Shown here: piece by piece, positions 28,024 to 43,282 of the stretch
Position numbering within the stretch: the stretch's first letter is position 1
Layout of the letters: every line of letters starts with the position of its first letter
Assembly (NCBI GenBank): GCA_026014735.1
Contig: JAOZHT010000002.1
Span: forward strand, 620,001 to 684,000
Direction: 5' to 3'
Source: Candidatus Bathyarchaeota archaeon
Lineage (GTDB): Archaea > Thermoproteota > Bathyarchaeia > Bathyarchaeales > Bathycorpusculaceae
DNA length: 64,000 nucleotides
Notes under the pieces: model-generated
What the model was told of the DNA's origin: nothing
The model's input: the letters and a program-made list of their open reading frames with translations, nothing else
The model's database searches: none
Translations under genes and position numbers: made by a program

Positions 28024-28148
28024 TGGCGCCGGGGAAGGGATTCGAACCCCTGCGGGCGCGAAGCCCACCAGCTATCCCGCCAGTAGTTAATCTGGCACCC
28101 TTTGATATGATCTCGAGGCTGGCGCGATAACCACTCCGCCACCCCGGC
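28024..28148 (-). tRNA. tRNA-Ser (CGA) with 38-nt intron
   Basis: The acceptor stem GCCGGGG pairs with CCCCGGC, followed by discriminator G and an encoded CCA (28026-28024). The D arm runs GCGGAGTGGTTATCGCG. The anticodon stem CCAGC pairs perfectly with GCTGG; the loop is CTCGAG-A with anticodon CGA at 28115-28113. An intron at 28111-28074 sits between positions 37 and 38, the standard archaeal site. It contains its own hairpin (GCCAG/CTGGC). A long variable arm (GGGC...GCCC) marks a type II serine tRNA. The T arm is AGGGG-TTCGAAT-CCCTT. Confidence 0.93.
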
Positions 28149-28173
28149 TCCGCAGATAGAGTTGTGGTTCCCG

Positions 28174-28192
28174 CATAAAGAGTTTTTCAATT
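28174..28192 (-). promoter_or_regulatory. Promoter of tRNA-Ser
   Basis: On the minus strand, ttgaaaaactctttatg ends about 26 bases before the mature 5' end and holds a TATA-like ctttat. The same sequence (attgaaaaactcttta, 31340-31355) is kept beside the decayed tRNA copy. Confidence 0.5.
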
Positions 28193-28423
28193 TGTCTAGT
28201 GAAATCGCTTAAACAGTACTGTACGGACAGCGCAAGGATACACAGTAATAGTTTCAACGCCCGTCGGAACATGATACCAGCGCTCAACGGACTATTGTCT
28301 CCAAGCCATAATCAAGGTGTCCCTGATGGCATTCTTATTTGGCACAAGCACTTCTTGGACTACCGGTTCTTCAAGTTCAACGAACTTGGGACTCCTTACT
28401 CCTTATACTTTCTGGGCGAAAAT

Positions 28424-28495
28424 GTGTAGACATCATGTGCATTTGTTTTTCTCCTTGGTTTCGGTAAGGGTCTCAGCAAACCCTCAGTTCCTGCC
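28424..28495 (+). repeat. Dispersed repeat R2, copy c (partial)
   Basis: Contains catcatgtgcatttgttttt, ctccttgg and gtctcagcaaaccctcag, matching the second half of copies a and b. It lies 21 bases from the 3' end of a minus-strand radical SAM gene, so in orientation it is not that gene's 3' UTR. The stretch 28196-28423 has no recognised gene. Confidence 0.65.
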
Positions 28496-28515
28496 ACGAA
28501 GCCAAAGCTAACTAT

Positions 28516-29502
28516 TCAAACTATGGACGACTCTATAGCATCCAAGAGTTCTTTAGGAGCTTCACGGTATACCTCGCCAAGGCATGCTGTATTACCTAAA
28601 ATTTGCTTCAAATGGTCGCTCCCACCTTTGAAATTTATGAAATTTATGTTCAGAAGTTGCTTTAAGAGATTGGATTCCTCAATAATGGCGGCTAATTTAT
28701 TTTCTTTTATGTTACCCAAAAAAAACTTTGGCGAAGACAAAACATGGCATGGATAGATTGAACCGTCTGGAAGAATGTTAACGTATTTGCCAACGCCACA
28801 GTTACCGCAACTTATGAGGCTGGGCTTCTTTATGGATTCTTGGTTTAAGGGGATACCGAAATGTCGCTGCCAAAAATCAGCCATAACCAATCTGATCTCA
28901 GTAGATGAACAGTCAAGAGCAGGTTGAAGAGAGCCTCTGCCAATTTGTCTAAATTGCGTCAAGTGAAACTTTGTCGCAATCCCTTCCTTAAGTATAAAAG
29001 ACAACCACTTTGAGAGATGGGGGAGGTTTGCCGAAGTGACAGTTATGCTGAGGCTCGGATAAATTCCTGCCTGCTTAAAATAATGAATCGCTCTCATTGC
29101 ATCGTCAAATGAACCTGGGCCTCTGAGGTTATCGTTGATTTCTTTTGGGCCATCTATACTAACCCGTACCTCGTCGAACACTTGAGCGATACAACCTGCT
29201 TTTTCCTCATCTATCAGCTTCCCGTTTGTCATTAGACACATTAGAGTTCTTTTATATGGGTCCAAACTACGAAGATAAGTTGCAATATTCAGGAGGTCAC
29301 TTCGAAGCAGGGGTTCGCCTCCTGTAAAGACAACTTTTTTTGGGGAGATTGTCAATATTTCCTCGCAGAGTCTGTAAAATTCGTCACTTGACATTTCATT
29401 TTTCATGACTTCGCTTGCGTCAAAATAACAGTATTTGCAATTGAGATTACAGGCATGCGTAAGGTGAACATAGATTTTGTTAATGGGGTGTTTCTTGTAC
29501 AT
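28516..29502 (-). CDS. Radical SAM/SPASM protein of the HEAT-linked pair
   Basis: 328 residues. The cluster motif CNLNCKYC (Cys18, 22, 25) is followed by KKVVFTGGEPLLR for SAM binding and a short SPASM-like tail (SCGNCGVGKYVNILPDGSIYPCHVL). The tail looks shortened: fewer cysteines follow than in full SPASM proteins (one, in NTACLGEV). The gene is AT-rich next to its neighbours. It lies 34 bases downstream of the HEAT-repeat gene on the same strand, so the two are probably one operon. Both sit between the intact and the decayed tRNA-Ser copies. SPASM enzymes often modify peptides or proteins; the HEAT protein could be partner or substrate carrier (inference). Confidence 0.8.
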   Translation of the reverse strand: MYKKHPINKIYVHLTHACNLNCKYCYFDASEVMKNEMSSDEFYRLCEEILTISPKKVVFTGGEPLLRSDLLNIATYLRSLDPYKRTLMCLMTNGKLIDEEKAGCIAQVFDEVRVSIDGPKEINDNLRGPGSFDDAMRAIHYFKQAGIYPSLSITVTSANLPHLSKWLSFILKEGIATKFHLTQFRQIGRGSLQPALDCSSTEIRLVMADFWQRHFGIPLNQESIKKPSLISCGNCGVGKYVNILPDGSIYPCHVLSSPKFFLGNIKENKLAAIIEESNLLKQLLNINFINFKGGSDHLKQILGNTACLGEVYREAPKELLDAIESSIV

Positions 29503-29536
29503 TTTCTCCGCTTTCTAAGGGAAATATGGTGTTTGC

Positions 29537-31123
29537 TTAAGATTTTTTGTAGTTTTGAATATCATATGGAGGATTACTCCTTTTTTTTAATTCGTTTAGT
29601 GCCTGTTCACGTTGATTTTGAAAACTCAACTCTTTGGTAACGTAGTTTGTTTCGATCTCTGGGCAGCCTTCAGAATAATAGATGCTGATGTCTTTTTTCT
29701 GTGAAATCAGGTGTAGTATGTTACTTGTAACGGGAGAGACATAATTACAGAGATTGCTAATTGCTTCATTAGACTGCATAAGTGTAAGATTCGTGGTCTC
29801 CCATCCTCCGATGTTAGTCACTTCTTCGGCTTCAAATGTTGATGCGTATATCGTCCAATAAACGACTGTATCTGTAAGAGAGGACAGAGGAACTAAAAGA
29901 TCGAGTTCCTTTTTCAAAGCCTCAAGTTCACTAGAAAGTTTGGATTCCTCGAATTTGTTCAAATTCAACTTATGCGTATAATTGAAATTAGCTGGATCAA
30001 ATATTGACTTGAGTTTTTGGTCAACTTCTTCGGGAGATATGCTAAAAGAAGGACTGTTCAGCTGTCCTAATGCTCTGGAAGCTGCTCTGCGAACAGAGAA
30101 GTCGTTGTCCATTCTAAATACTGCAACTAAAGCGTCAGTTGCCTGTGAATCGCCTATTTCACCTAAACTTGTCGCTGCGAGTCTTCTTATTTCGATGCTT
30201 TCGTCTTTAAGCAGAGGAACTAATGCGTTTGTAGCTTGTAAATTATGAATAGACCCTAATGCTTCAATAGCGCATCTGCGTGAATTTACATCTTGGTTTT
30301 GAAGAGTAAGTATGAGTGCATTTAGCGCTTTTTCTCTACCGATTTTCACCAAAGCCTCTGCCGCAGGTTTGCATACAGTTGCATCTTTAAGAATATCCGC
30401 CAAGGGCTCTATCGCTTTTATATCGCCTATTTTGTTTAAAGTATCAATTGCTTGTAATTTGACCGCATTGTTCTCGTCTTTAAGGGTCACAATTAATGAT
30501 TCTACTGCACGGCGGTCTCCAATTATTCCTAGTGCTTTTGCCGCATCTTTGCGAGTGGAGGCTTTCGGATCATGAAGGGCAGCTATCAATGTGTTTAGCG
30601 CTTTATCCCCGCCTATCTTTCCTAACGCCTCAATTGACGAGTGGTTTAAATCATCATCCGACTCATTGAGGACCGCAACTAACCCCTCAACTGCTCGCTC
30701 ATTATGCAATTCACCTAGTTCCTTTGCCGCCTCCGGACGTGATCTCCACTTCCGGTCTGCAAGCAAATAGAGTAGCCCATCGATTTTATGTTCGCCGTTT
30801 GTTCTCGAGAGCATGTATGCCGCGTTTTGACGTACCCAATAATCTGTGTCTTTGAGCGCAAGATGCATTGAATTTTCTGCTCGGTCATCCACTAAGTCCC
30901 TTAATGTGGCTGAAGCGTTTTGGCGCACTTCAACCACTGGGTCATTGAGTGCCGCAATTAATGCGTTGATTGTGCGTCTATCTCTAATCATAAATAAGGC
31001 ACGTGATGCCTCTATTCTAACTGAGGGATCTTTCTTGTATTCCAGTGCATTTATCAAGCCGTCTATGTCGCCGTTAGCCTGCATTTTTTTTACCTTTGAT
31101 TTTGATAAACCAAAAAGATGCAA
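29537..31123 (-). CDS. HEAT-repeat (PBS-lyase-type) scaffold protein with unknown C-terminal domain
   Basis: 528 residues. Residues ~15-355 are about eleven HEAT repeats of ~31 residues, with the recurring pattern AVESLIVTLKDENNAVKLQA and ALGEIGD/ALGKIGGDKAL. The last ~150 residues are different: a coiled segment (KLSSELEALKKELDLLVPL), then a non-repeat domain (VVYWTIYASTFEAEEV...) that I do not recognise. HEAT arrays bind proteins. It is upstream of, and apparently co-transcribed with, the radical SAM gene. The poly-A/T start context and AT content are unlike the flanking ribosomal genes, which suggests an acquired segment. Confidence 0.82.
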   Translation of the reverse strand: MHLFGLSKSKVKKMQANGDIDGLINALEYKKDPSVRIEASRALFMIRDRRTINALIAALNDPVVEVRQNASATLRDLVDDRAENSMHLALKDTDYWVRQNAAYMLSRTNGEHKIDGLLYLLADRKWRSRPEAAKELGELHNERAVEGLVAVLNESDDDLNHSSIEALGKIGGDKALNTLIAALHDPKASTRKDAAKALGIIGDRRAVESLIVTLKDENNAVKLQAIDTLNKIGDIKAIEPLADILKDATVCKPAAEALVKIGREKALNALILTLQNQDVNSRRCAIEALGSIHNLQATNALVPLLKDESIEIRRLAATSLGEIGDSQATDALVAVFRMDNDFSVRRAASRALGQLNSPSFSISPEEVDQKLKSIFDPANFNYTHKLNLNKFEESKLSSELEALKKELDLLVPLSSLTDTVVYWTIYASTFEAEEVTNIGGWETTNLTLMQSNEAISNLCNYVSPVTSNILHLISQKKDISIYYSEGCPEIETNYVTKELSFQNQREQALNELKKRSNPPYDIQNYKKS

Positions 31124-31220
31124 CTTTCGTCACCATAGCCCAAAGCTATTGTGTATCATTAGATTGTTTATCTATTTAGGTTTTGTTAATAATGTGAAAA
31201 TTTTTTGCAATTGAAAAAGT

Positions 31221-31323
31221 TGGTCCCGGGGAAGGGATTCGAACCGCTGCGGGCGCGAAGCCCACCAGCTATCCCGCCAGTAGTTAATCTGGCACCCTTT
31301 GATGTGATCTCTGGCGCGATAAC
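31221..31323 (-). pseudogene. Decayed copy of tRNA-Ser(CGA)
   Basis: Matches 28024-28131 (3' end through the intron into the D arm) at over 90%. Five bases covering the anticodon loop and stem (28115-28119 region) are deleted, one T-stem pair is broken (AGCGG against CCCTT), and the 5' acceptor strand and D-stem start are absent. The upstream promoter sequence is retained (31340-31355), so a whole gene with leader was duplicated and then decayed. It is in the same orientation as the intact gene. Confidence 0.88.
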
Positions 31324-31415
31324 TTTTACGGTTCAAACCTAAAGAGTTTTTCAATGCCCCGACGCTAAAGTCTGTGGCGTAGGGGTGCGGCAGATAGGTT
31401 GAGCCTGTGGTTGAT

Positions 31416-31515
31416 TCTATAAATAGAGGGGGGATAGGTGCCCTCAAGCAGCAGCAGTCCACATAGGCTGCGCATACGTTTCCATATACTGCCTATTTAA
31501 AAGGGGCTATAGAAA
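31416..31515 (+). repeat. Dispersed repeat R3, copy a
   Basis: Begins tctataaatagaggggggat and continues through gcagcagcag and tgcgcatacgtttccatata to ctatttaaaaggggctatag. The last ~50 bases match the reverse complement of 35010-35056 almost exactly; the first ~30 match other R3 copies. It lies ~180 bases upstream of the L3 start. The gap 31124-31693 holds the decayed tRNA, this repeat and the L3 promoter, and no coding gene that I can support. Confidence 0.8.
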
Positions 31516-32719: not shown

Positions 32720-33505
32720 ATGGCACAGAAAACCGCAGAAATCTTTGATTTACAGGGCAAATCCAACGGGAAAATCACTCTCCCAGAGGTTTTCTCTACA
32801 CCGCTAAGACCCGACGTGATAAAACGTGCAGTCCTAGCCATACAGTCCAATCGCCTCCAGCCTCAGGGCAGAGACCCCATGGCTGGCAAACGAACCACGG
32901 CAGAGTCACGCGGCACAGGCAGCGCCACCGCAAGGGTTCCCCGCGTTAAAGGCGGCAGCGGCAGAGCAGCGTTTGCCCCCAGCACCGTAAAAGGCAGACA
33001 GCCTCATCCGCCCCGCGCAGAGAAAATCATAGTTAAAGCCATACCCAAAAAAGAAGCCAAACTCGCCTTAACCTCCGCCATCGCAGCCACTGCAGAGAAA
33101 GATGTTGTGGCAGCCCGCGGACACAAAATCGAGGAAGTCCTCGCGTTGCCGCTGGTAGTCGACAACGCCTTTGAAGCTTTAACCAAAGCCAAAGACGTCG
33201 AAGACGCCTTCGCAAGCCTCGGATTCACCGCCGAACTCACGCGGGTTCGCGAAAGCCGCAACGTCCGCGCAGGTAAAGGTAAACATCGCGGCAGAAAAAT
33301 GAAGCAGGCTGTTGGTCCACTCATCGTGGTTGTGGAGGGCAAGAGCCTTGCTAAAGCAGCCAGTAACCTTCCAGGCGTCGAAGTCACCAGCGTCACAAAC
33401 CTTAACACTGAGATGCTTGCTCCGGGTACTCAACCGGGCAGGTTGACGCTTTGGAGCAGCGGCGCAATCGAGAAACTTTCAACTCTATATGGAGAAGCAG
33501 CATAA
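32720..33505 (+). CDS. rpl4: 50S ribosomal protein L4 (uL4)
   Basis: 261 residues of archaeal/eukaryotic L4 type. LRPDVIKRAVLAIQSNRLQPQGRDPMAGKRT is followed by GTGSATARVPRVKGGSGRAAF, the extended loop lining the exit tunnel. Later blocks are KAKDVEDAFASLGF and RNVRAGKGKHRGRKMKQAVGPLIV. Its TAA stop shares a base with the L23 ATG (TAATG), so translation is probably coupled. Confidence 0.97.
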   Translation: MAQKTAEIFDLQGKSNGKITLPEVFSTPLRPDVIKRAVLAIQSNRLQPQGRDPMAGKRTTAESRGTGSATARVPRVKGGSGRAAFAPSTVKGRQPHPPRAEKIIVKAIPKKEAKLALTSAIAATAEKDVVAARGHKIEEVLALPLVVDNAFEALTKAKDVEDAFASLGFTAELTRVRESRNVRAGKGKHRGRKMKQAVGPLIVVVEGKSLAKAASNLPGVEVTSVTNLNTEMLAPGTQPGRLTLWSSGAIEKLSTLYGEAA

Positions 33506-33765
33506 TGAACATTGATGATGTAATCTTTTTTCCGTTGATGACTGAATCAGCCAGCTTGATGGTTGAGAAAGACAACAAACTCATCTTCATGGTTAACCTT
33601 AAAGCGGATAAAGCAGACATAAAGCGCGCTGTTGAAACCATGTATGAAGTGAAGGTTAAACGAATCAATCTGCTTATCACTCCGCAGGGCGAAAAGAAAG
33701 CCTTCGTGAAGCTGATGCCAGAGTTCCGTGCATCTGACGTCGCGATTAAACTTGGAATACTCTAA
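33505..33765 (+). CDS. rpl23: 50S ribosomal protein L23 (uL23)
   Basis: 86 residues from the ATG at 33505 (MNIDDVIFFPLMTESASLM). The frame is open upstream inside L4, but that extension is not L23-like. KLIFMVNLKADKADIKRAVE and VKVKRINLLITPQGEKKAFV are the family core. L23 sits at the tunnel exit and binds SRP. Start overlaps the L4 stop by one base. Confidence 0.96.
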   Translation: MNIDDVIFFPLMTESASLMVEKDNKLIFMVNLKADKADIKRAVETMYEVKVKRINLLITPQGEKKAFVKLMPEFRASDVAIKLGIL

Positions 33766-33783
33766 CATATGGTGGCTTGACTT

Positions 33784-34524
33784 ATGGGAAAACGTATCCG
33801 TGTACAAAGAAGAGGGCGTGGCGGACAGAACTTCCGCGCTTCCACTCACAAACGTGTTGCACCCGCAAAATATCCAGCTATTGCCCCCAAGGAATCCTTT
33901 GAAGCTGAACTCGTCGGCGTCATCGTGGATTTAGTTCATGATCCCGGTCGAGGTTCCCCGCTTTCATTTATCGAATTCGAGGATGGCTCATCAATCTACA
34001 GCATCACTCCTGAGGGCGTCTACACAGGTCAAGAAATTGTTTACGGCGGAAAAGCCCCTGCTGAAATCGGCAACATTCTTCCATTGGGCAAGATGCCTGA
34101 GGGAACTTTGATCTGCGATCTTGAGCTTCGCCCTGGCGACGGCGGCAAGATGGCTCGCAGCAGTGGCGCCTACGCGACTGTGGTGGGTCACACTCCTCAG
34201 GGCACCATGATTCGGTTGCCTTCCGGTCGCACCCGCTATGTTAACGATTACTGTTTAGCAACCATCGGCGTCATATCCGCTTCTGGCCGTATCGATAAGC
34301 CTTTCCTTAAGGCAGGCGAGAAATTCCACCTGATGAAGGCGAAGGGCCACAAGTATCCACGTACCAGCGGCAGAAAAATGGTTCCCGCTGTTCACCCCTA
34401 TGGTAGCAGCAAACGCAGCGCTCGCCGAACCACAACTACAAGTCACGGTGCACCGCCAGGACAGAAAGTCGGCTTAATTGCCGCTCGTGGTCCAGGCCAG
34501 AAAAAGAAACGAGCTATAAGATAA
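33784..34524 (+). CDS. rpl2: 50S ribosomal protein L2 (uL2)
   Basis: 246 residues. [27 protein letters not shown] is the archaeal N-terminus. [19 protein letters not shown] and the C-terminal [27 protein letters not shown] mark L2, which supports the peptidyl transferase centre. Eighteen bases after L23, 16 before S19. Confidence 0.97.
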
Positions 34525-34540
34525 AAAAGGAGAATGGAAA

Positions 34541-34945
34541 ATGCCAAAAGAATTTAGTTTCCGCGGTCACAGCCTCGAAAGCCTCTCAGCGATGTCTATG
34601 GATGAATTCATCAACATGCTTCCCAGCCGCCAACGCCGCAGCCTCCAACGCGGATTAACCGCAGAGCAGCGTATACTGCTTGAGAAACTCCGCACTGCCA
34701 AAGAAGGCAAAAAAGCAGAGAAGGAAGGCGGAATCAAAACCCACGTGCGCGACCTCATTATCCTGCCAGAGATGGTGGGTGCAAAAATCAGCGTGCACAA
34801 CGGCAAAGAATTCGTCGCCATGACTATCCGACCTGAAATGATTGGCCACTACCTCGGCGAGTTTGCCATCACAAACAAGCCAGTGCGCCATGGAACTCCA
34901 GGTATCGGCGCTTCGCGGTCATCTATGTATGTGCCGCTAAAATAA
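34541..34945 (+). CDS. rps19: 30S ribosomal protein S19 (uS19)
   Basis: 134 residues, archaeal S15/S19 type. [32 protein letters not shown] at the start, then [25 protein letters not shown] and the conserved ending [29 protein letters not shown] gagaatgg-type ribosome binding site precedes ATG. The usual next genes (L22, S3, L29) are absent: the operon ends here with a T-rich terminator and an R3 repeat. Confidence 0.97.
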
Positions 34946-34949
34946 GCCC

Positions 34950-34980
34950 TCTTTTCATCTATTTTCTTAATTTTTTGTTT
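34950..34980 (+). terminator. T-rich terminator after S19
   Basis: cttttcatctattttcttaa followed by six T residues, starting 5 bases after the S19 stop, matches archaeal T-tract termination and marks the real end of the operon. Confidence 0.55.
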
Positions 34981-35006
34981 ATTTAAGCCCAGTTGCGCTT
35001 GCGCAG

Positions 35007-35103
35007 ATCTATAGCCCCTTTTATATAGGCAGTATATGGAAACGCATGCGCAAGCCCCCGCACTTCTGTTGCTCTGCCACGTCTATCCCCCCTCTACTTA
35101 TAC
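35007..35103 (-). repeat. Dispersed repeat R3, copy b (inverted relative to copy a)
   Basis: On the minus strand it reads aagtagaggggggatag, cgtggcagagcaacagaagt, tgcgcatgcgtttccatata and tgcctatataaaaggggcta. GCTTGCGCA and TGCGCAAGC near the two ends of its distal half form a perfect 9-bp stem. Its proximal end overlaps the last codons of the minus-strand gene 35094-35915. Confidence 0.8.
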
Positions 35104-35915
35104 TGCCCTTGTTTTCCCCAGAAGTTCACATGCACATGATTAACAGTCATGCTCTTTGAGGGTAAAGCAAACGTGTAGGTGCCTGATTCTGTGAATTCTG
35201 CTTTTGTTTTTCTTAGCTTAGACTTTCCTTTAATTTTGGCTCCGATTATCAGGCCCAGAGAGGCCACACCGATGAAGAAGAACGGGATGTCTGGAACGTA
35301 CTGCAGCGCCACCATAGCTGCCCCGATGAACAAGGCATAAACGGTTAGGGCATAGAAGAGCGGGCGGTTTGTCTTTGGATACTTCAAAAACAGCAGCGCC
35401 AGCGGAATCATCGTTGTAGGGCACCCCATCAACCCATAAGCGCCAAACAGCAGCTCTTTAGGGTCAAAGTTCAAACCGACTCCCCAAGTGTAGGGTGGAT
35501 ACCAAAAACCCCAGATGAAAAACGGCACAACAATCAACAACCGCCACTTCTCAAAACTGCTAAAATCCAAGTCTAACTGAGGCTTTCGGTATTCCTGTAT
35601 CCACTGATAAAGGATGACTAGAAGTAACACAGGCGTAGCTGCATACATCGCCAGCGACGGGATTCCCAGCCGCTGAAACAGTTGAAGACTAAACCAGCCT
35701 CCAACAAAAACCACCAGCCACACATAGTTCAATATAAAATAGACTGTGAAGGCTTTCTGGAAGCGTTGCCCATAGCGGAAAACAAGGAAAATGAGTGCCA
35801 ACGTAACAATGTGTAGCAGAGGCGACAGCCAACTGTATTCTGTCCGGTATTGCCCAGTCAGTTGCCCCATGGTAATGCCAAAGAGTGACGGGTCAAAATC
35901 AACCATCGATTGCAC
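35094..35915 (-). CDS. Multi-pass membrane protein (DUF6064-like)
   Basis: 273 residues with about seven membrane segments. It begins with a short loop (YRTEYSWLSPLLHIVTLAL) and has GAYGLMGCPTTMIPLALLFL, a motif I associate with DUF6064-type proteins. The C-terminal ~45 residues are soluble (TESGTYTFALPSKSMTVNHVHVNFWG). The last codons and stop lie within R3 copy b, so the repeat may have supplied or altered the C-terminus. Function unknown. Confidence 0.6.
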   Translation of the reverse strand: MQSMVDFDPSLFGITMGQLTGQYRTEYSWLSPLLHIVTLALIFLVFRYGQRFQKAFTVYFILNYVWLVVFVGGWFSLQLFQRLGIPSLAMYAATPVLLLVILYQWIQEYRKPQLDLDFSSFEKWRLLIVVPFFIWGFWYPPYTWGVGLNFDPKELLFGAYGLMGCPTTMIPLALLFLKYPKTNRPLFYALTVYALFIGAAMVALQYVPDIPFFFIGVASLGLIIGAKIKGKSKLRKTKAEFTESGTYTFALPSKSMTVNHVHVNFWGKQGQYK

Positions 35916-36043
35916 CTCAGGGTTTAGTTTGAGTTAATTAGGCTAAGCATAGCAACTTTCCTACTTTCTTCACAGCTACAAGGTACTCTGTTTTTGTTTT
36001 AAGCTTTAACTCCAGCGAACTTAAAACGAGTAAAACAAAGCAG

Positions 36044-36120
36044 CTTATTGTTTGTCGTATTTCCATGACTTCATTATTCATGATGGTAAGCTCGATGCCT
36101 GCTTGCTTAAACATTTTCAA
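36044..36120 (-). pseudogene. 3' fragment of the dCMP deaminase gene (attachment-like direct repeat)
   Basis: About 77 bases match the last 23 codons and stop region of the deaminase at 38286-38789 (MFKQAGIELTIMNNEVM in both). One extra C near 36064 shifts the frame after that point, so the tail differs. It is in the same orientation as the intact gene and lies at the far side of a 2.16-kb AT-rich insert, the position expected for a displaced 3' end after integration. Confidence 0.85.
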
Positions 36121-36136
36121 TGGTGGACCGAATAGT

Positions 36137-36694
36137 TCACTTTGACTGAACCAACACGTTTACTTGGCTGTCGATTTCTTTGCCAAAACTTGAAAAGGTA
36201 TTATCAAAGACGATATGGTAAGTCGTATTTGGCAACAACAGGACAGATAGGTCGGCAGCATTTACTTCGCCTGTATCATAAACAGCATCAAAACTCTCTT
36301 TAACAAGCCAACGGCTAAAGTTTGCGTTATCCAAAATGTATAGCCTCACACAGTCACCGCTATCTCCCGAAACTGTAAAGTTGCCCTCAAGCCGAGCCCA
36401 AGAAAAATCCTTGAGTGTAAACTCGTAAGAATAGTATGAACTGGCATTAATTACGATTTGTCCATTCAATAATTTTTCTACTGACGGCGTGTATACTATA
36501 TTGATATCGTGGTCTGGGGAACTGTTTTCTTCACTATCGTTTGAATTGGCTTCGTTACTCTTCTGAGGGGTGCTATAAACAGTGCTGTTATTACTCGAGT
36601 TTATTGGTTGACTTGATAGAACTGGCAACAGAGTTATGACAATTATGAGGGTGAGACTACTTAATGCTGCCAAGCATTTATACTTTCGAATCAT
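36137..36694 (-). CDS. Secreted beta-sandwich-like protein in the deaminase-linked island
   Basis: 185 residues. It has a signal peptide (CLAALSSLTLIIVITLLPVLS), a long Asn/Ser/Glu-rich linker, then a compact domain (IVINASSYYSYEFTLKDFSW, SGDSGDCVRLYILDNANFSRWL, NTTYHIVFDNTFSSFGKEID). That pattern recalls GOLD/emp24-like or pre-peptidase beta-sandwich domains seen on archaeal secreted proteins; the match is by pattern only. Several N-glycosylation sites. It is AT-rich relative to its surroundings and lies within the island bounded by deaminase gene copies, with another secreted protein divergent from it. Confidence 0.6.
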   Translation of the reverse strand: MIRKYKCLAALSSLTLIIVITLLPVLSSQPINSSNNSTVYSTPQKSNEANSNDSEENSSPDHDINIVYTPSVEKLLNGQIVINASSYYSYEFTLKDFSWARLEGNFTVSGDSGDCVRLYILDNANFSRWLVKESFDAVYDTGEVNAADLSVLLLPNTTYHIVFDNTFSSFGKEIDSQVNVLVQSK

Positions 36695-36771
36695 TAACTT
36701 TATACTATCGACATTTATTATTTAAGTCTTTTTAAACGGATGTTTTTTATTCTGAGTCTGAGGCTGATTTA

Positions 36772-36783
36772 TTTTTATATATT
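36772..36783 (+). promoter_or_regulatory. TATA box of the island's rightward gene
   Basis: tttttatatatt lies about 52-63 bases before the proposed GTG start at 36835, with aggaag close before that start. Confidence 0.45.
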
Positions 36784-36834
36784 ATTACTGATGTATGCTT
36801 ACTTGGGAAAAGCTATTTTCCCTAAAAACAGGAA

Positions 36835-38219
36835 GTGGAAAAAACGAAAAGAACAAAAGCAATTTTTTCGCTGCTCTTAATATTATCATTAGCTACAACT
36901 GCAGGCGCAATCCAGATATGTGGTGTCAATGCCCAAATATCAGTGAATAAAAGCCCTCAACTTTCTTTAATCCCTCGATTTTAAGTTCAGATATAATCGC
37001 AAACAACGCAAGCGGTAACTTAAGGAATCAACAATCGAATCTAACAGAGTATAAACCTGAACCAGCAGTTAATTCAACATTAATCTCACCTGTATGGACA
37101 CCTCGGCTAGTTCAAGATCCGGATAGTAATCGCACTACCTTACAATTTGATACGTTGAGACAAAATCGTTGGGGCTACATAACCTACTGGGCAACTACGG
37201 GGGGAGGTCAATTACCCTCCAGTCTAACTGGCACATTTAACGCGGTATCTAATACAATCGATGGACTCGATGAAGGTGATTGCATAATGTATTTGCCTCT
37301 GAATGTTGCTTATGGAACATCTGTTAATAATTGCGTTTGGTTCCAGATGTCGGTCCAATTTAACGATGATGATTCTATTACTTGGGCGATTTTCGATATT
37401 CGGGGACCAGGAGACAGTCCAGATGATTTCGAATACTATAATATTCCAATCGATTATGTACCCGGACACAGCTATAGCTTTTCGATTGCACCAAATGGAG
37501 GCACAATAACATTTTCAATTACTGACACAACTACACAAACCCCTTGGGCGATAAGCACTTGGCATTTTGATATACCGAGCCTTAATATGCTTTACAATAC
37601 AAATTGTTTCTCCCCTGCTAGTGCGATAGAAGGCGTTACATCAAGCGGTCAACTTACAAATGTGCCTTATTTTGAAACATACATGGGATATGGACAAACT
37701 ACCTTTTGGGAATGGGCAAGTGGTTCAAGACCCCTAGGTATAGCTGCGAGAACTTGGCCTGGCTCTACTAATTATTACCACTGGGAAATGCTAAGACAGC
37801 ATTATGTATCAAACTATCTTTCACCACCTACAACTTGGGGACAGGGTGCAGTCAATAATCCAAGCGGATTAGTAGGCGACTACAACGACAGAAGTTATGT
37901 TCAACTTTGGGGCGGAAACTATGGTGATGGCGGATTAATAATTGGTCAGATGGCCGATACTTCGACGGGCGGAATCAATCTCTGGGGGTACTCGGGTACA
38001 GGATACTATTCGCATGTTTACGTCTTTGTTTCCTATAACAACTACTATGACTGGGACCAAGTTGTCTGTTTGACGGTATATGGCGATGGTACAGGACCTC
38101 ATTGGATATACTGTGGTTCTTGGTGGAACGATTTCCGATACATAGCCATTGTAGCGATTGACGATAACGGAATGAGCGCCAATTTCTTCGTAGATTCCGT
38201 ACAAGTAACGGCAGCATAG
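36835..38219 (+). pseudogene. Secreted protein gene split by a frameshift (signal peptide out of frame)
   Basis: A GTG at 36835, preceded by aggaag, opens a typical signal peptide (KAIFSLLLILSLATTAGA) that runs to a stop near 36984. The long mature protein is in another frame, open from about 36951 (PSTFFNPSILSSDIIANNAS...) to 38219, with no good start codon before a TTG at 37155. One indel near the aataaaag run (36946-36953) would join them. The mature part (~420 residues) is beta-rich and aromatic, with many Gly, Trp and Tyr (WGYITYWATTGGGQLPSSLT; YVFVSYNNYYDWDQVVCLT), and ends in a free C-terminus without an anchor. No family is recognised. This could be a real pseudogene, a sequencing error or recoding. 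Confidence 0.65.
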
Positions 38220-38285
38220 CAATACTTAATCAGTAAAACTTCCCTTTTTCTTTTGATCGTTTTTAGAAATCATACGGTAAGCGGT

Positions 38286-38789
38286 TTATTGTTTGTCGTA
38301 TTTCATGACTTCATTATTCATGATGGTGAGCTCGATGCCTGCCTGCTTGAACATATCAATTGTGTCGGCGTCGGCGTGGTAACGTTTCTCGCAGACCACC
38401 CGCTTAATCCCCGCGTTAATTATCATCATCGCGCAGGTGCGGCAGGGCGTCATCTTGCAGAACAATGTTGCGCCCTCAAGGGGAATCCCAAACCGCGCTG
38501 CCTGCAAAATCGCGTTCTGCTCGGCGTGGAGTGTGCGGACGCAGTGCTGGGTGATTTCTCCGTTGCCGTTGGTGACTTGGCGCATGTCATGCCCGACTTC
38601 GTCGCAGTGCGGCAGCCCCGCGGGTGCCCCAACGTAGCCGGTGGTCATGATGCGTTTGTCTTTAACGATGACGGCGCCGCATTTGCCGCGGTCGCAGGTT
38701 GCGCGTGCAGCGACGGCTTCGCACATGTCAAGGAAGTATCGGTCCCAGTTTGGTCGTGAATGATTGTTGCTATTTTCTGTTGCCATCAA
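38286..38789 (-). CDS. dCMP deaminase (ComEB-type cytidine/deoxycytidylate deaminase)
   Basis: 167 residues. Zinc motif HAEQNAI (88-94, catalytic Glu) and PCRTCAMMIINAG (115-127) are complete. TCDRGKCGAVIVKDKRIMTTGYVG is the family start. It converts dCMP to dUMP for thymidylate synthesis. Two adjacent Met codons could start it. Its 3' end is duplicated at 36044-36120, and the AT-rich island between the two copies abuts its stop codon. The gene itself is intact. Confidence 0.92.
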   Translation of the reverse strand: MMATENSNNHSRPNWDRYFLDMCEAVAARATCDRGKCGAVIVKDKRIMTTGYVGAPAGLPHCDEVGHDMRQVTNGNGEITQHCVRTLHAEQNAILQAARFGIPLEGATLFCKMTPCRTCAMMIINAGIKRVVCEKRYHADADTIDMFKQAGIELTIMNNEVMKYDKQ

Positions 38790-38857
38790 GGTGCCTTCTA
38801 AGGTTTAGGAAGATAAAAACACACAAATTAATAAATTGTGGGCTTAGCGTTTGGCAG

Positions 38858-40150
38858 CTACTTTTGGAGTATGTGGATTTCTCTGCCGACTTTATGGCGC
38901 TCATCAATCTCAACCAGCGAGCCCGAATGCACCAGCCGCGCCACATCCGACTCCTCGCTAAACATGTCTCGCTCGAAGACGTAAACCCGCTTAAACCCAG
39001 CCTGCTCCAGCTGCTCATCCACTCGCATGGTAGCGGCTTCACCTGACCGCGTGGCTATGTAGGGCGTCACCAGCACCAGCCGCCCATTGGGCTTTAAGGC
39101 GGCGTAGGCTTGTTCGATGAAGCCATGAAAAAGCGGCTCAAGTTTCTCCACGATTTTCTCCGCGTAAGCAACAGTCGGGAAATCTTTGAGTGCAGGCCCC
39201 AAATCAGGCTCGGAGACGATGCAGTCCATGCTTTCCAAGCCCACCTTCGCCGTTAATTTCCCCACATCGCTTTGCATGACACGGAACTCCGCGCCCTTCA
39301 AACCGTACTCGCCGATTAGCCACTCCAAATTTTCCTCCGCCGCCTCCACGCACCAGCCATTCACGTCTAGCCCCACAACGGATGCCTCCTCCAGCAGCGC
39401 CTCCTGCAGTATGGTGCCGACGCCGCAGAATGGATCCAGCAGCGTCTTGCCTTTGGTGCAGGCGGAAAGATTCACCATCATCCTTGCCAGCCGCGGGGGC
39501 ATGGCGAAGATTTTGCGTTGGTTGGGTTTGTAGATGTCTCTTTTCTGGAACTCAAAGGGGTTATGCACCGCCACTGTGGAGGCTATCCAGGTGGTTTTTT
39601 TGCCGATGCAAACCAGCACCTCAGCCTGGTTTTCCACCAGCTGCTTTTTGAGAACTTCCACGTGGCTAAGTTGGACTCTGCGGTCACTGGAGTAACCCAT
39701 AAAATCGGATTTTTTGCCCTTGGCTGCCAACTCGTCTTTGATGGCGCTGCCGACAAAGCGCTGCATGCGCCCCGCAACGGGGTGAAGGGTGTTGTCGGTG
39801 AAGTAGACGCTGACGCCGAAGAGCACTTTTTGGGGCGATGCGAGCATGCCGCCAAAGATGGGGCTTTGGGCTATGGTTTGCGCAAGTTGTTTTTGGGCTG
39901 CCTTGTTTTTCTGCAGGAACGCTTCTTTGATTGTTTGGGTGGGCAGGGTGTTTTTTGCTTCTGCGATTTTTATGGTTCCTCCGAGGTCATCGATGACTTT
40001 GGCGCCCGTGGCCTCTGGGAAGGTGAGGGTGAAGAATTCCCTTGAGAAATACTCGATTTTGAAGGGTACGTTGCGGGTTTTATAGTAGGCTGCCAGCTCC
40101 GCTAGCGAGAGAACCCAGTTTTTGCCTGCGATAAACAACTGCGTGGACAT
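38858..40150 (-). CDS. THUMP-domain RNA methyltransferase (TRM11/Trm-G10-like)
   Basis: 430 residues from the ATG at 40150 (STQLFIAGKNWVLSLAELAAYY); a GTG at 40168 adds six unlikely residues. The N-terminal half is THUMP-like. The C-terminal Rossmann methyltransferase has DPFCGVGTILQEALLEEASVVGLDVN. The usual catalytic DPPY/NPPY motif is replaced by VSEPDLGPAL. TRM11-like enzymes methylate G10 of tRNA; the altered motif may mean a changed target or a subfamily using S/T-E-P. It is divergent from L10e, 169 bases away. Confidence 0.82.
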   Translation of the reverse strand: MSTQLFIAGKNWVLSLAELAAYYKTRNVPFKIEYFSREFFTLTFPEATGAKVIDDLGGTIKIAEAKNTLPTQTIKEAFLQKNKAAQKQLAQTIAQSPIFGGMLASPQKVLFGVSVYFTDNTLHPVAGRMQRFVGSAIKDELAAKGKKSDFMGYSSDRRVQLSHVEVLKKQLVENQAEVLVCIGKKTTWIASTVAVHNPFEFQKRDIYKPNQRKIFAMPPRLARMMVNLSACTKGKTLLDPFCGVGTILQEALLEEASVVGLDVNGWCVEAAEENLEWLIGEYGLKGAEFRVMQSDVGKLTAKVGLESMDCIVSEPDLGPALKDFPTVAYAEKIVEKLEPLFHGFIEQAYAALKPNGRLVLVTPYIATRSGEAATMRVDEQLEQAGFKRVYVFERDMFSEESDVARLVHSGSLVEIDERHKVGREIHILQK

Positions 40151-40272
40151 TTGGGAAAAGAAAAGCACTCAGCCTATATAAGTAAATGACGGACGCGTCG
40201 CGGTTGAATGTTTGTTGGGGATGGGTTAGAATACCAGAAAAGCACGGGGGCAACGCAATATTTTTACAAATC

Positions 40273-40289
40273 GTTTAAATATTTAAAGG
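40273..40289 (+). promoter_or_regulatory. TATA box region of L10e
   Basis: gtttaaatatttaaagg lies about 30-47 bases before the L10e ATG, a strong AT-rich core promoter. Confidence 0.6.
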
Positions 40290-40319
40290 TGTGAGTATTG
40301 CTACCGAAAGTGACGTCGC

Positions 40320-40865
40320 ATGCACGCAAGAAATTATAGACACGTAAAGAACCGAGCATACACACGCAAAGAGTACGCTCGAGGTTTTCCGCCACCAAAA
40401 ATCGTCAAGTTCACAATGGGCGATACTAGAGGCCAATTCGACATAGAGGGCCAGCTTATATCAACCCAGCGAGTTCAAATTCGCCACTGCGCACTGGAAG
40501 CAGCACGCGTCGCAACCAACCGTGTCTTGATGGATAAACTAGTTAACGATTACCTCATGATTGTCCATCCTTACCCACACATTATCCTACGCGAAAACAA
40601 AATGATCTTCGGAGCACACGCAGACCGACTTCAACAGGGAATGAGGCGGTCTTTTGGCACAGCCGTGGGCACAGCCGCTAAAGTCGAAGACGGCCAAACC
40701 CTCATTACCGTCCGCGTAAAGGCGGGGCAAGCAGAATTAGCCAAAGAATCCCTCAAGCGAGGCAGCGCAAAACTCCCCATAGCCTGCAAGATTGTAATCT
40801 CCAAGATTCAAGCTTCCCCAGCAGCCCCTGTTGAGAAAGCCTCCCCGGAGACGGAGACCGCTTGA
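40320..40865 (+). CDS. rpl10e: 50S ribosomal protein L10e (uL16)
   Basis: 181 residues. NYRHVKNRAYTRKEYARGFPPPKIVKFTMGD is the archaeal L10e start. IRHCALEAARVATNRVL and HPYPHIILRENKMIFGAHADRLQQGMRRSFG are the core blocks near the tRNA-binding sites. Its TGA stop overlaps the TTG start of the PEP synthase gene by four bases, so an essential ribosomal gene is translationally linked to a metabolic gene. Confidence 0.96.
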   Translation: MHARNYRHVKNRAYTRKEYARGFPPPKIVKFTMGDTRGQFDIEGQLISTQRVQIRHCALEAARVATNRVLMDKLVNDYLMIVHPYPHIILRENKMIFGAHADRLQQGMRRSFGTAVGTAAKVEDGQTLITVRVKAGQAELAKESLKRGSAKLPIACKIVISKIQASPAAPVEKASPETETA

Positions 40866-43282
40866 GCGCCAAAGACAAAGAGCTTGTTTTATGGTTTGAT
40901 AATTTAAGAAACACTGACGTATCCATTGTTGGCGGCAAAAACGCCAGCCTCGGCGAAATGATTCATGCTGGGCTCCCTGTTCCTTTTGGTTTTGCAGTAA
41001 CAGCCTACTCGTATGAACGCTTTATCGTCGAAAAGAAAATCGCTGAGAAAATCTACGAAATTATCAAAGCCACCGTAATTGACCCCAACGACCCCAAGCA
41101 GTACGAGGCAGCATCCAAACGCATCCGGGAACTCATCGAGAAAACCCAGATGCCTAAAGACATCGAGGAAGCCATAAGAGCCGCCTACATCGAACTAAAC
41201 CAGCGATTCAGCCTTAAAGACACCTTTGTGGCTGTGCGTTCAAGCGCAACCGCCGAGGACCTGCCTGACGCATCCTTTGCGGGGCAGCAGGAAACCTACC
41301 TTAACGTGAAGGGCTCCGACGACCTCATCGAGAAAGTCGTGAAGTGCTGGAGCAGCCTATTTACGCCCCGAGCCATCTTTTACCGCAACGAAAAGGGTTT
41401 CCCCCATGAGAAGGTTTTCATTAGCGTCGGCGTCCAGAAGATGGTTAACAGCCGCGCTGCCGGCGTCATGTTTACAATTAACCCCGTCACGGGCAACCAT
41501 GACGAAATCGTCATCGAAGGCAACTTTGGACTCGGCGAAACCGTAGTGTCGGGCGCCGTGAACCCCGATGACTTCGTGATTGACAAAGCCGCCATGAAGA
41601 TTAAGCAGCGGCGTATCGCGAAGAAAACGGTGAAGTACATCCGTGACCCCAAAACGGGCAAAACCATCCACCTTGACATCCCCGAGGCGGAGCAGAAGCA
41701 GGTCTGCGTAACCGACACTGAACTCCTCTACCTTGCAGGCTTAGCTAAACGCATCGAAGCCCACTACAACAAACCCATGGATATCGAGTGGGCAATCGAT
41801 CAGGACCTCACCTACCCCCAGAACATGATGCTGGTTCAGGCGCGTCCAGAAACAATTTTCGGTTTAAAGTCACAGGAGGCAACCAAAACGGAAGAAAACA
41901 ATTTAGGTCCACTAAAAGTTGTTGTGCGAGGCATCTCCGCTGGCCGCAGAGGCTACGGCACAGGCATAGCTAAAGTTGTGCTTAACCTCGAAGACGCCAG
42001 CAAACAGATGCAGAAAGGAGACATCCTCGTCACAGCCATGACTGACCCCGACTTTGTCCCATTCATGAAGATGGCATCGGCCATAGTCACCGATAAAGGC
42101 GGCATCACCAGCCACGCAGCCATCGTCAGCCGAGAACTCAACATCCCCTGCGTCGTCGGAACCGAAATCGGCACACAGGTCATGAAGACAGGAACCGAAT
42201 ACACCGTTGACTCACAGAACGGCATAATCTACGATGGCTACCTCGAGCAGGCAACAAAATCCCAGAGCAACGGCAACTCCGTGACGGTTGCTGCGGAAGC
42301 AGCGCCGGTAACCGCGACAAAAATCTACATGAACCTAGGCACCCCCGAGATGATTGAGCAATACAAGAATCTGCCTTTTGAGGGCATAGGCTTGATGCGC
42401 ACCGAATTCATCATGGCAAGCAGCATCGGCAAGCACCCGATGGAATTCATCGAGGAGGGCAAAGGCCAAGAATTCATCGATAAATTCGCAGACGCAGTCG
42501 CCCATGTTGCACGAGCAATTCAACCCCGCCCCGTCGTGGTGCGTCTCAGCGACTTCAAAACCAACGAGTACCGCAACCTGAAAGGCGGCGACAAATACGA
42601 AATCCTAGAGGAAAACCCGATGCTGGGCTGGAGAGGCTGCAGCCGCTACATCAGCAAATGGTATGAGCAGGCTTTCCGGCTGGAATGCAAAGCCATCAAG
42701 AAGTGCCGCTCAGAATGGAGCCTTAAAAACGTCTACGTTATGCTTCCGATGGTCCGCACGCTCTGGGAAGCCAAGGCGGTGCTGGAAATCCTCAAGCAAG
42801 AGGGATTGGAACGCAACCGGGACTTCAAAATCTGGTTTATGGCTGAAACCCCCTCTATCGGCATCATGGCTGATGAATTCAGCAAACTCGTCGACGGCTT
42901 CAGCATAGGCTCAAACGACATGACCCAGGGTGTCCTCATGATTGACCGCGACAGCGAACGATTGGGCCAAATGGGCTACTTTGACGAACGCGACCCAGCA
43001 GTTAAACGCATCATCGCACACCTTATCCGCGCCGCCCACGAAAACGGCTGCACCGTAAGCATCTGCGGCGAAGGCCCCAGCAACCTGCCTGACTTCGCAG
43101 AGTTTTTGGTCCGCGTAGGCATCGACAGCATCTCAGTCAACAACGACGCAGTCGTCGCCACCCGCAAAAACGTAGCTAGCGTCGAGCAGAAAATCATCCT
43201 TGAGCGTCTCGCCGAGCAAGCTGCTCTTGCACGGGGTCAACCCCTCAAAAAGCCCAAACCCGACTGGGAATGGACTCCATAG
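40862..43282 (+). CDS. ppsA: Phosphoenolpyruvate synthase (pyruvate, water dikinase)
   Basis: 806 residues, full length. The N-terminal ATP-grasp domain opens with VSIVGGKNASLGEMIHAGLPVP and has RSSATAEDLPDASFAGQQETYLNV. The phosphohistidine swivel is GGITSHAAIVSRELNIPCVVG. The C-terminal PEP barrel has GLMRTEF, IGSNDMTQ and ICGEGPSN with its catalytic Cys. It makes PEP from pyruvate and ATP, feeding gluconeogenesis and hence the glucan/trehalose block. A TTG start overlaps L10e by 4 bases. Confidence 0.95.
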   Translation: MSAKDKELVLWFDNLRNTDVSIVGGKNASLGEMIHAGLPVPFGFAVTAYSYERFIVEKKIAEKIYEIIKATVIDPNDPKQYEAASKRIRELIEKTQMPKDIEEAIRAAYIELNQRFSLKDTFVAVRSSATAEDLPDASFAGQQETYLNVKGSDDLIEKVVKCWSSLFTPRAIFYRNEKGFPHEKVFISVGVQKMVNSRAAGVMFTINPVTGNHDEIVIEGNFGLGETVVSGAVNPDDFVIDKAAMKIKQRRIAKKTVKYIRDPKTGKTIHLDIPEAEQKQVCVTDTELLYLAGLAKRIEAHYNKPMDIEWAIDQDLTYPQNMMLVQARPETIFGLKSQEATKTEENNLGPLKVVVRGISAGRRGYGTGIAKVVLNLEDASKQMQKGDILVTAMTDPDFVPFMKMASAIVTDKGGITSHAAIVSRELNIPCVVGTEIGTQVMKTGTEYTVDSQNGIIYDGYLEQATKSQSNGNSVTVAAEAAPVTATKIYMNLGTPEMIEQYKNLPFEGIGLMRTEFIMASSIGKHPMEFIEEGKGQEFIDKFADAVAHVARAIQPRPVVVRLSDFKTNEYRNLKGGDKYEILEENPMLGWRGCSRYISKWYEQAFRLECKAIKKCRSEWSLKNVYVMLPMVRTLWEAKAVLEILKQEGLERNRDFKIWFMAETPSIGIMADEFSKLVDGFSIGSNDMTQGVLMIDRDSERLGQMGYFDERDPAVKRIIAHLIRAAHENGCTVSICGEGPSNLPDFAEFLVRVGIDSISVNNDAVVATRKNVASVEQKIILERLAEQAALARGQPLKKPKPDWEWTP

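Follow-up and report, generated by a model that had tools for sequence, protein, structure and literature searches.

A dCMP deaminase gene in the genome of an uncultured Bathyarchaeia archaeon is followed by a second, damaged copy of its own 3′ end, and the question that this locus raises is what kind of event installed the DNA between the two copies. The stretch that was analysed (the window) is 64,000 nucleotides long and corresponds to contig C2:620001-684000 of a 2.91-Mb genome in 10 contigs that is 99% complete. The intact target gene lies on the minus strand (38286-38789) and encodes a protein of 167 aa, which matched Pfam PF00383 (E=1e-25) and a PHROG dCMP deaminase (2e-46). The extent of the repeat was determined by local alignment. 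The right, att-like copy (38279-38364, minus strand) consists of the intact 3′ end of the gene, comprising about 26 codons and 9 nt beyond the stop, and the left copy (36038-36125, minus strand) is a displaced and decayed fragment in the same orientation; 88 nt could be aligned with 89.8% identity. The alignment score was 127, compared with a maximum of 28 in 100 shuffles. In a whole-genome search the deaminase 3′ end was found in exactly these two places, and the next-best match within 1.65 Mb of the same genome was 15 nt exact (E=0.4).

A first-pass annotation of this DNA had described a same-orientation recurrence of the last deaminase codons, and the score obtained here confirms it. The repeat is slightly longer than the roughly 23 codons and 77 bp (36044-36120) given there, and instead of one inserted base the left copy has two, an additional A (in GAAAATG) and an additional G (in ATGGAAA). 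Due to these insertions it is not a coding copy. No tRNA gene was found at the repeat itself. What is present is an attL/attR-like direct repeat with the 3′ end of the gene inside it, the gene restored on one side and a same-orientation fragment downstream on the other. The structure is a real insertion scar, and the earlier view of an integrase-like geometry on a protein-coding target with no integrase present is supported, as is the old age of the event.

Five coding substitutions separate the two copies, every one of them at a third codon position, and they change a single residue, an Asp in the intact gene; the left copy has Glu at this position, as do most relatives. A xenologous origin of one copy was considered on the basis of this third-position pattern and was rejected: after polarisation with the relatives, only two or three changes fall on the left copy, so that the pattern is compatible with the ordinary decay of a duplicate.

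The island between the repeats (36126-38278) measures 2,153 bp and has a GC content of 40.0%, compared with about 50% in its flanks, in agreement with the AT-rich segment of 2.16 kb, bordered by the intact gene on the right and the fragment on the left, that had been noted before. Similar DNA was absent from 31 same-genus genomes except for short stretches of 363 bp at 68% in one species (G016) and 128 bp in another (G012), both matching the C-terminal domain of the longer cargo protein. The cargo reads as two secreted proteins, as described earlier, with the correction that the longer gene is frameshifted between signal peptide and body. The shorter one, cargo A (36137-36694, minus strand), encodes 185 aa with a signal peptide recognised by eye. 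Searches of Pfam, PHROGs, NCBIfam and PADLOC gave no significant family for it, and of the order's 163 genomes only 2 others contain relatives. Its structure model (pLDDT 55) bears a weak Foldseek likeness to SEC14-like and p24 GOLD domains, so cargo A may, with low confidence, be a secreted protein with a GOLD-like beta-sandwich. Cargo B (36835-38219, plus strand) has its signal peptide starting from a GTG at 36835 and its body of 422 aa (36951-38219) in another frame, the frameshift lying near 36970; either the gene is broken or the assembly contains an indel. Homologues of cargo B occur in 17 relatives, the best long match being 36% over 348 aa in G017, and its C-terminal domain recurs within secreted proteins of these 17 relatives. 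The cargo B domain is that of a secreted protein family encoded on the chromosomes of this genus, not by viruses. Viral genes as the source of the cargo were rejected, as in the libraries searched neither relatives in viral contigs nor a PHROG match was found. Direct repeats around the G017 homologues were also dismissed as signs of further islands, since they are upstream promoter-type repeats, and a single-sequence structure model of cargo B was discarded because of its poor quality.

Neither the island nor the rest of the window holds a recognisable integrase or other recombinase. The whole-genome search with PF00589 gave three integrase-like genes, none of which lies in the window. Integrases of this genome are located at C1:279175, C1:315295 and C2:805045. 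Neither cargo protein matched integrase or transposase families. Signs of a casposon or DDE transposon were not observed either: in a repeat search across 33000-42000 the island ends were free of paired inverted repeats, and neither ORF matched a transposase. The 2.15-kb island also contains no replication gene.

The distribution of the insertion was assessed by comparison with 31 other species of the genus, and the deaminase locus was read in 20 same-genus relatives; the deaminase relatives that bear a name are Candidatus Bathyarchaeota and Candidatus Bathycorpusculum assemblies. The deaminase-methyltransferase-L10e-PPS block is conserved at all 20 loci, and each of the 20 has a single deaminase 3′ end with no cargo behind it. 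A co-linear empty site was not found, because the nearest relatives are too distant and the gene order downstream differs among species. Four arrangements occur past the deaminase stop: one is common to G006, G007 and G018, G011 and G015 each have their own, and the fourth is that of the present genome, with the L3-S19 operon turned round and S19 facing the deaminase. In several members of the genus the flank behind the deaminase is thus a rearrangement breakpoint, and the insertion is specific to this lineage among the species compared. Outside the repeat lies another lineage-specific neighbour, a membrane protein gene (35094-35915, minus strand) with a weak DUF6064 match (Pfam E=0.003, below the cut-off). 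Its protein had no match in same-genus relatives, and none of the 20 loci has a DUF6064-like gene downstream of the deaminase. No relative carries the cargo at this place without the second fragment, and a whole-gene tandem copy of the deaminase was not found. Elements at the same codons, which had been suggested as something to search for, do not occur in the 20 relatives: in the 1-15 kb read per relative there was no second 3′ copy behind the deaminase, and the idea of a recurrent integration site in the genus was rejected.

A 45-bp inverted repeat (31469-31513 and 35008-35052) flanks the L3-L4-L23-L2-S19 operon in the window, and its right copy runs antisense into S19, without a gene of its own. 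This repeat was considered as a scar of the same event and rejected, because the motif to which it belongs is promoter-like and dispersed, matching the genome at 31 places.

Among the explanations that we considered for the deaminase locus, the one we put first, tentatively and at slightly less than an even chance, is an old integrative island that holds cargo only and was moved by a recombinase that either worked in trans or has been lost. A DNA circle would have carried the two accessory secreted-protein genes together with its own copy of the last 26 or so deaminase codons, and one crossover between this circle and the resident deaminase 3′ end would have integrated it. The incoming copy (38279-38364) would now complete the deaminase gene, and the resident 3′ end would have been displaced 2.15 kb downstream (36038-36125), where it lost its function and decayed. 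The recombinase would most likely have been a tyrosine integrase, which a resident element provided in trans or which has since been deleted. A recombinase is our first choice because of islands of the same build at tRNA genes of this genome and because of archaeal and bacterial precedents (PMC6563490, PMC6379469).

Integration at the 3′ ends of protein genes is already known in archaea, and the deaminase island is of a known kind. In Thaumarchaeota, 14 of 68 located elements lie in 3′-distal regions of protein genes, one of them a Zn-finger gene (PMC6563490). These elements share with the deaminase island the archaeal host and the direct repeat derived from a protein gene 3′ end. However, they have a gene for an integrase or a casposase (in the cryptic class the integrase is part of the definition), are at least 2.6 kb in size and have mostly short repeats, whereas the deaminase island has no recombinase and an 88-nt repeat. 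In Escherichia coli, prophage e14 duplicates 163 bp of the 3′ end of icd, with one Asp/Glu difference between the two ends (PMC6379469). As in the deaminase island, a metabolic enzyme gene has received a new 3′ end from incoming DNA, its old end is retained and an Asp/Glu codon distinguishes the two; e14, on the other hand, is a site-specifically integrated prophage, whereas the cargo here is two genes without phage genes or an integrase. Several points weigh against an integrative island. There is no recombinase, a circle of 2.15 kb would have no replication gene, the site is unused in the 20 relatives, and no attP-like match to the repeat was found in viral contigs. The repeat is also long: most tRNA repeats of the same genome measure 22-48 nt, and crenarchaeal att sites of 29-69 bp (PMC6563490) are shorter than its 88 nt.

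The genome was compared with itself for further islands of this type; this comparison and the island counts cover 1.65 of the 2.91 Mb. Close direct repeats (at least 45 nt, at least 82% identity, 0.3-25 kb apart) are rare, with just 13 in 1.65 Mb, and several of them flank islands, namely those at the deaminase, tRNA-Ser(CGA), a 52-codon gene, tRNA-Leu(caa) and tRNA-Ser(gct). At least six tRNA genes in this part of the genome have a copy or fragment of their 3′ end downstream in the same geometry. The search with tRNA 3′ ends gave downstream same-strand copies for Leu(caa), Pro(cgg) (two tandem fragments), Ala(cgc), Val(gac), Lys(ttt), Leu(tag) and Ser(gct). With a strict 24-nt tRNA probe, 4 of 4 free hits were downstream on the same strand, and none was seen in three control arrangements. 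Two of the tRNA genes are associated with large elements, one of 74 kb at tRNA-Lys(ttt) (C1:278831-352972) and one of 35 kb at tRNA-Leu(tag) (C2:804597-840167). Both carry a PF00589 tyrosine integrase at the att side, adjoining the fragment or the tRNA.

Five further tRNA islands are small (0.8-4.4 kb), hold one to four accessory genes and have no integrase. They are located at tRNA-Leu(caa) (L304:4009-6236), in tandem at tRNA-Pro(cgg) (L306/L307, C1:439250-444546), at tRNA-Ala(cgc) (L316:3511-5739) and at tRNA-Ser(gct) (L312:3105-4381). The Leu(caa) island carries a split OLD-like nuclease, the first Pro island a B12/iron-type substrate-binding, radical-SAM and ABC-transporter set, the second Pro island an AbrB-VapC-like pair, the Ala island an OLD-like ATPase and the Ser(gct) island a Fic protein; the genes of the Pro and Ala islands were identified by eye. 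Since integrase-less islands and integrase-bearing elements of like build exist in the same genome, the earlier suggestion of a cargo-only element or one mobilised in trans gains weight, while the action of a recombinase at the deaminase stays conjectural.

The 3′ ends of protein genes were examined in the same manner. Among 1,885 ORF 3′ ends scanned, those of the deaminase, FEN1 and the 52-codon gene stand out, in the sense that a near-identical copy lies close downstream that is not the end of a full-length paralogue. The 52-codon gene forms a whole-gene direct repeat of 165 bp with 97% identity around a segment of 4.8 kb (L294:3781-8927; C1:183781-188927), which encodes proteins of 476 aa and 1019 aa. 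The 1019-aa ORF (C1:185.6k) contains two copies of the cargo B C-terminal domain and is the only other locus with this domain in the whole genome. That this second locus also lies inside a repeat-flanked segment supports the integrative-island reading. The FEN1 3′ end has a 30-nt copy 0.8 kb downstream, around the gene for a 169-aa secreted membrane protein (C2:480805-481607, within L265/L264, C2:479776-481826; FEN1 and GlmS were named by eye). At its far end this island has a 3′-end fragment of glmS, the next gene (77% over 78 nt), directly followed by the displaced FEN1 fragment. Such a composite junction, containing a fragment of the next chromosomal gene, is unexplained by an integrase and weighs against the favoured reading; it fits better with an inserted piece of a relative's FEN1-X-glmS locus, from which it would be expected.

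Because of this FEN1-GlmS junction, homology-anchored illegitimate recombination (insertion-duplication) is a near-equal rival, and we regard it as quite possible for the deaminase locus, if short of probable. A chromosomal fragment of a relative, linear or circularised, with secreted genes behind its deaminase would have paired at the resident 3′ end and been joined illegitimately on the other side, with no mobile element taking part; the left fragment would be the old resident end. Both deaminase copies resemble functional alleles at sister-species distance, with 5 third-position differences in 78 nt compared with 4 in the closest relative pair, and the similarity ends just beyond the stop, where intergenic DNA diverges between species. 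The assignment of the cargo B domain to the chromosomal secreted proteins of the genus points the same way. The same geometry of an intact gene, new downstream genes and then the displaced old 3′ end with the old downstream genes is known from Vibrio T6SS effector loci, where orphan 3′ ends were explained by homology-facilitated illegitimate recombination (PMC5361080). There a variable effector gene makes up the replaced part, whereas here it is the end of a conserved housekeeping gene, and the process is rare where it has been measured (PMC5361080). A donor with the cargo beside its own deaminase was not found among the 20 relatives with their flanks or in a genus-wide DNA search, and the far end of the deaminase island has no neighbour-gene fragment comparable to the glmS fragment. 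The tRNA 3′-end islands, which suggest an active recombinase-type process in this genome, would also be left unexplained. The observed structure fits a hybrid gene formed by a homologous join on one side, with a join outside homology on the other, but a single integrase crossover yields the same structure. The integrative island and illegitimate recombination have a common core: at the deaminase 3′ end, one crossover or an equivalent step brought in foreign DNA and pushed the resident end away.

It is improbable that the island is a by-product of chromosomal rearrangement, in which repair of a break duplicated the 3′ end and trapped filler DNA as the block ending in L3-S19 was turned. The variable 3′ neighbours of the deaminase in the genus and the second lineage-specific gene (35094-35915) in the same junction would agree with this. 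However, an inversion with staggered breaks gives inverted copies at two breakpoints and not a direct repeat 2.2 kb apart, other rearranged species are without a second 3′ end, and a fragment that holds exactly the 3′ end of the gene would not be accounted for. Tandem or xenologous duplication of the whole deaminase, with later truncation of one copy and entry of accessory genes between the two, is very improbable even with two copies nearby and duplicated whole genes flanking islands in this genome (the 52-codon gene, tRNA-Ser), as the similarity has a sharp start some 26 codons ahead of the stop and the other 140 or so codons have left no decayed remnant, and none of the relatives shows another deaminase 3′ end in the vicinity.

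To return to the favoured integrative island, it might, in a more general form that we consider unlikely, be one cassette of a wider system, in which islands of 0.8-5 kb with 1-4 accessory genes and no recombinase would be set into tRNA and a few protein-gene 3′ ends by recombinases acting in trans from large resident elements. Helper-dependent mobilisable elements, including CALINs (integrase-less cassette arrays), also carry cargo without a recombinase of their own that is possibly moved in trans, as in the deaminase island (PMC11389934). CALINs, however, are arrays with attC sites moved by integron integrases, whereas the targets here are tRNA and protein-gene 3′ ends. The repeat-flanked integrase-less islands across the genome, which the first-pass annotation did not contain, are more interesting than the deaminase scar. 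Small islands without a recombinase are easily overlooked because detection usually starts from an integrase. That a single genome of uncultured Bathyarchaeia holds several of them at tRNA and protein-gene ends, with genes for defence, toxin-antitoxin pairs, transporters and secreted proteins, shows one route of gene gain in such archaea, and poses the question whether they were moved in trans by resident integrases or arrived by homologous recombination of neighbours' DNA.

The window itself contains a further repeat-flanked segment. An intact, intron-bearing tRNA-Ser(CGA) gene (28027-28148, minus strand) and a decayed copy (31214-31335) flank an AT-rich island of 3 kb (28027-31335), which encodes a HEAT-repeat protein and a protein of the radical SAM/SPASM type that is pVip-like in PADLOC (E=2e-20). 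Here, the decayed copy lies upstream, not downstream, of the intact tRNA. The relative G007 has a single tRNA-Ser(CGA) of this kind, which is located beside L3.
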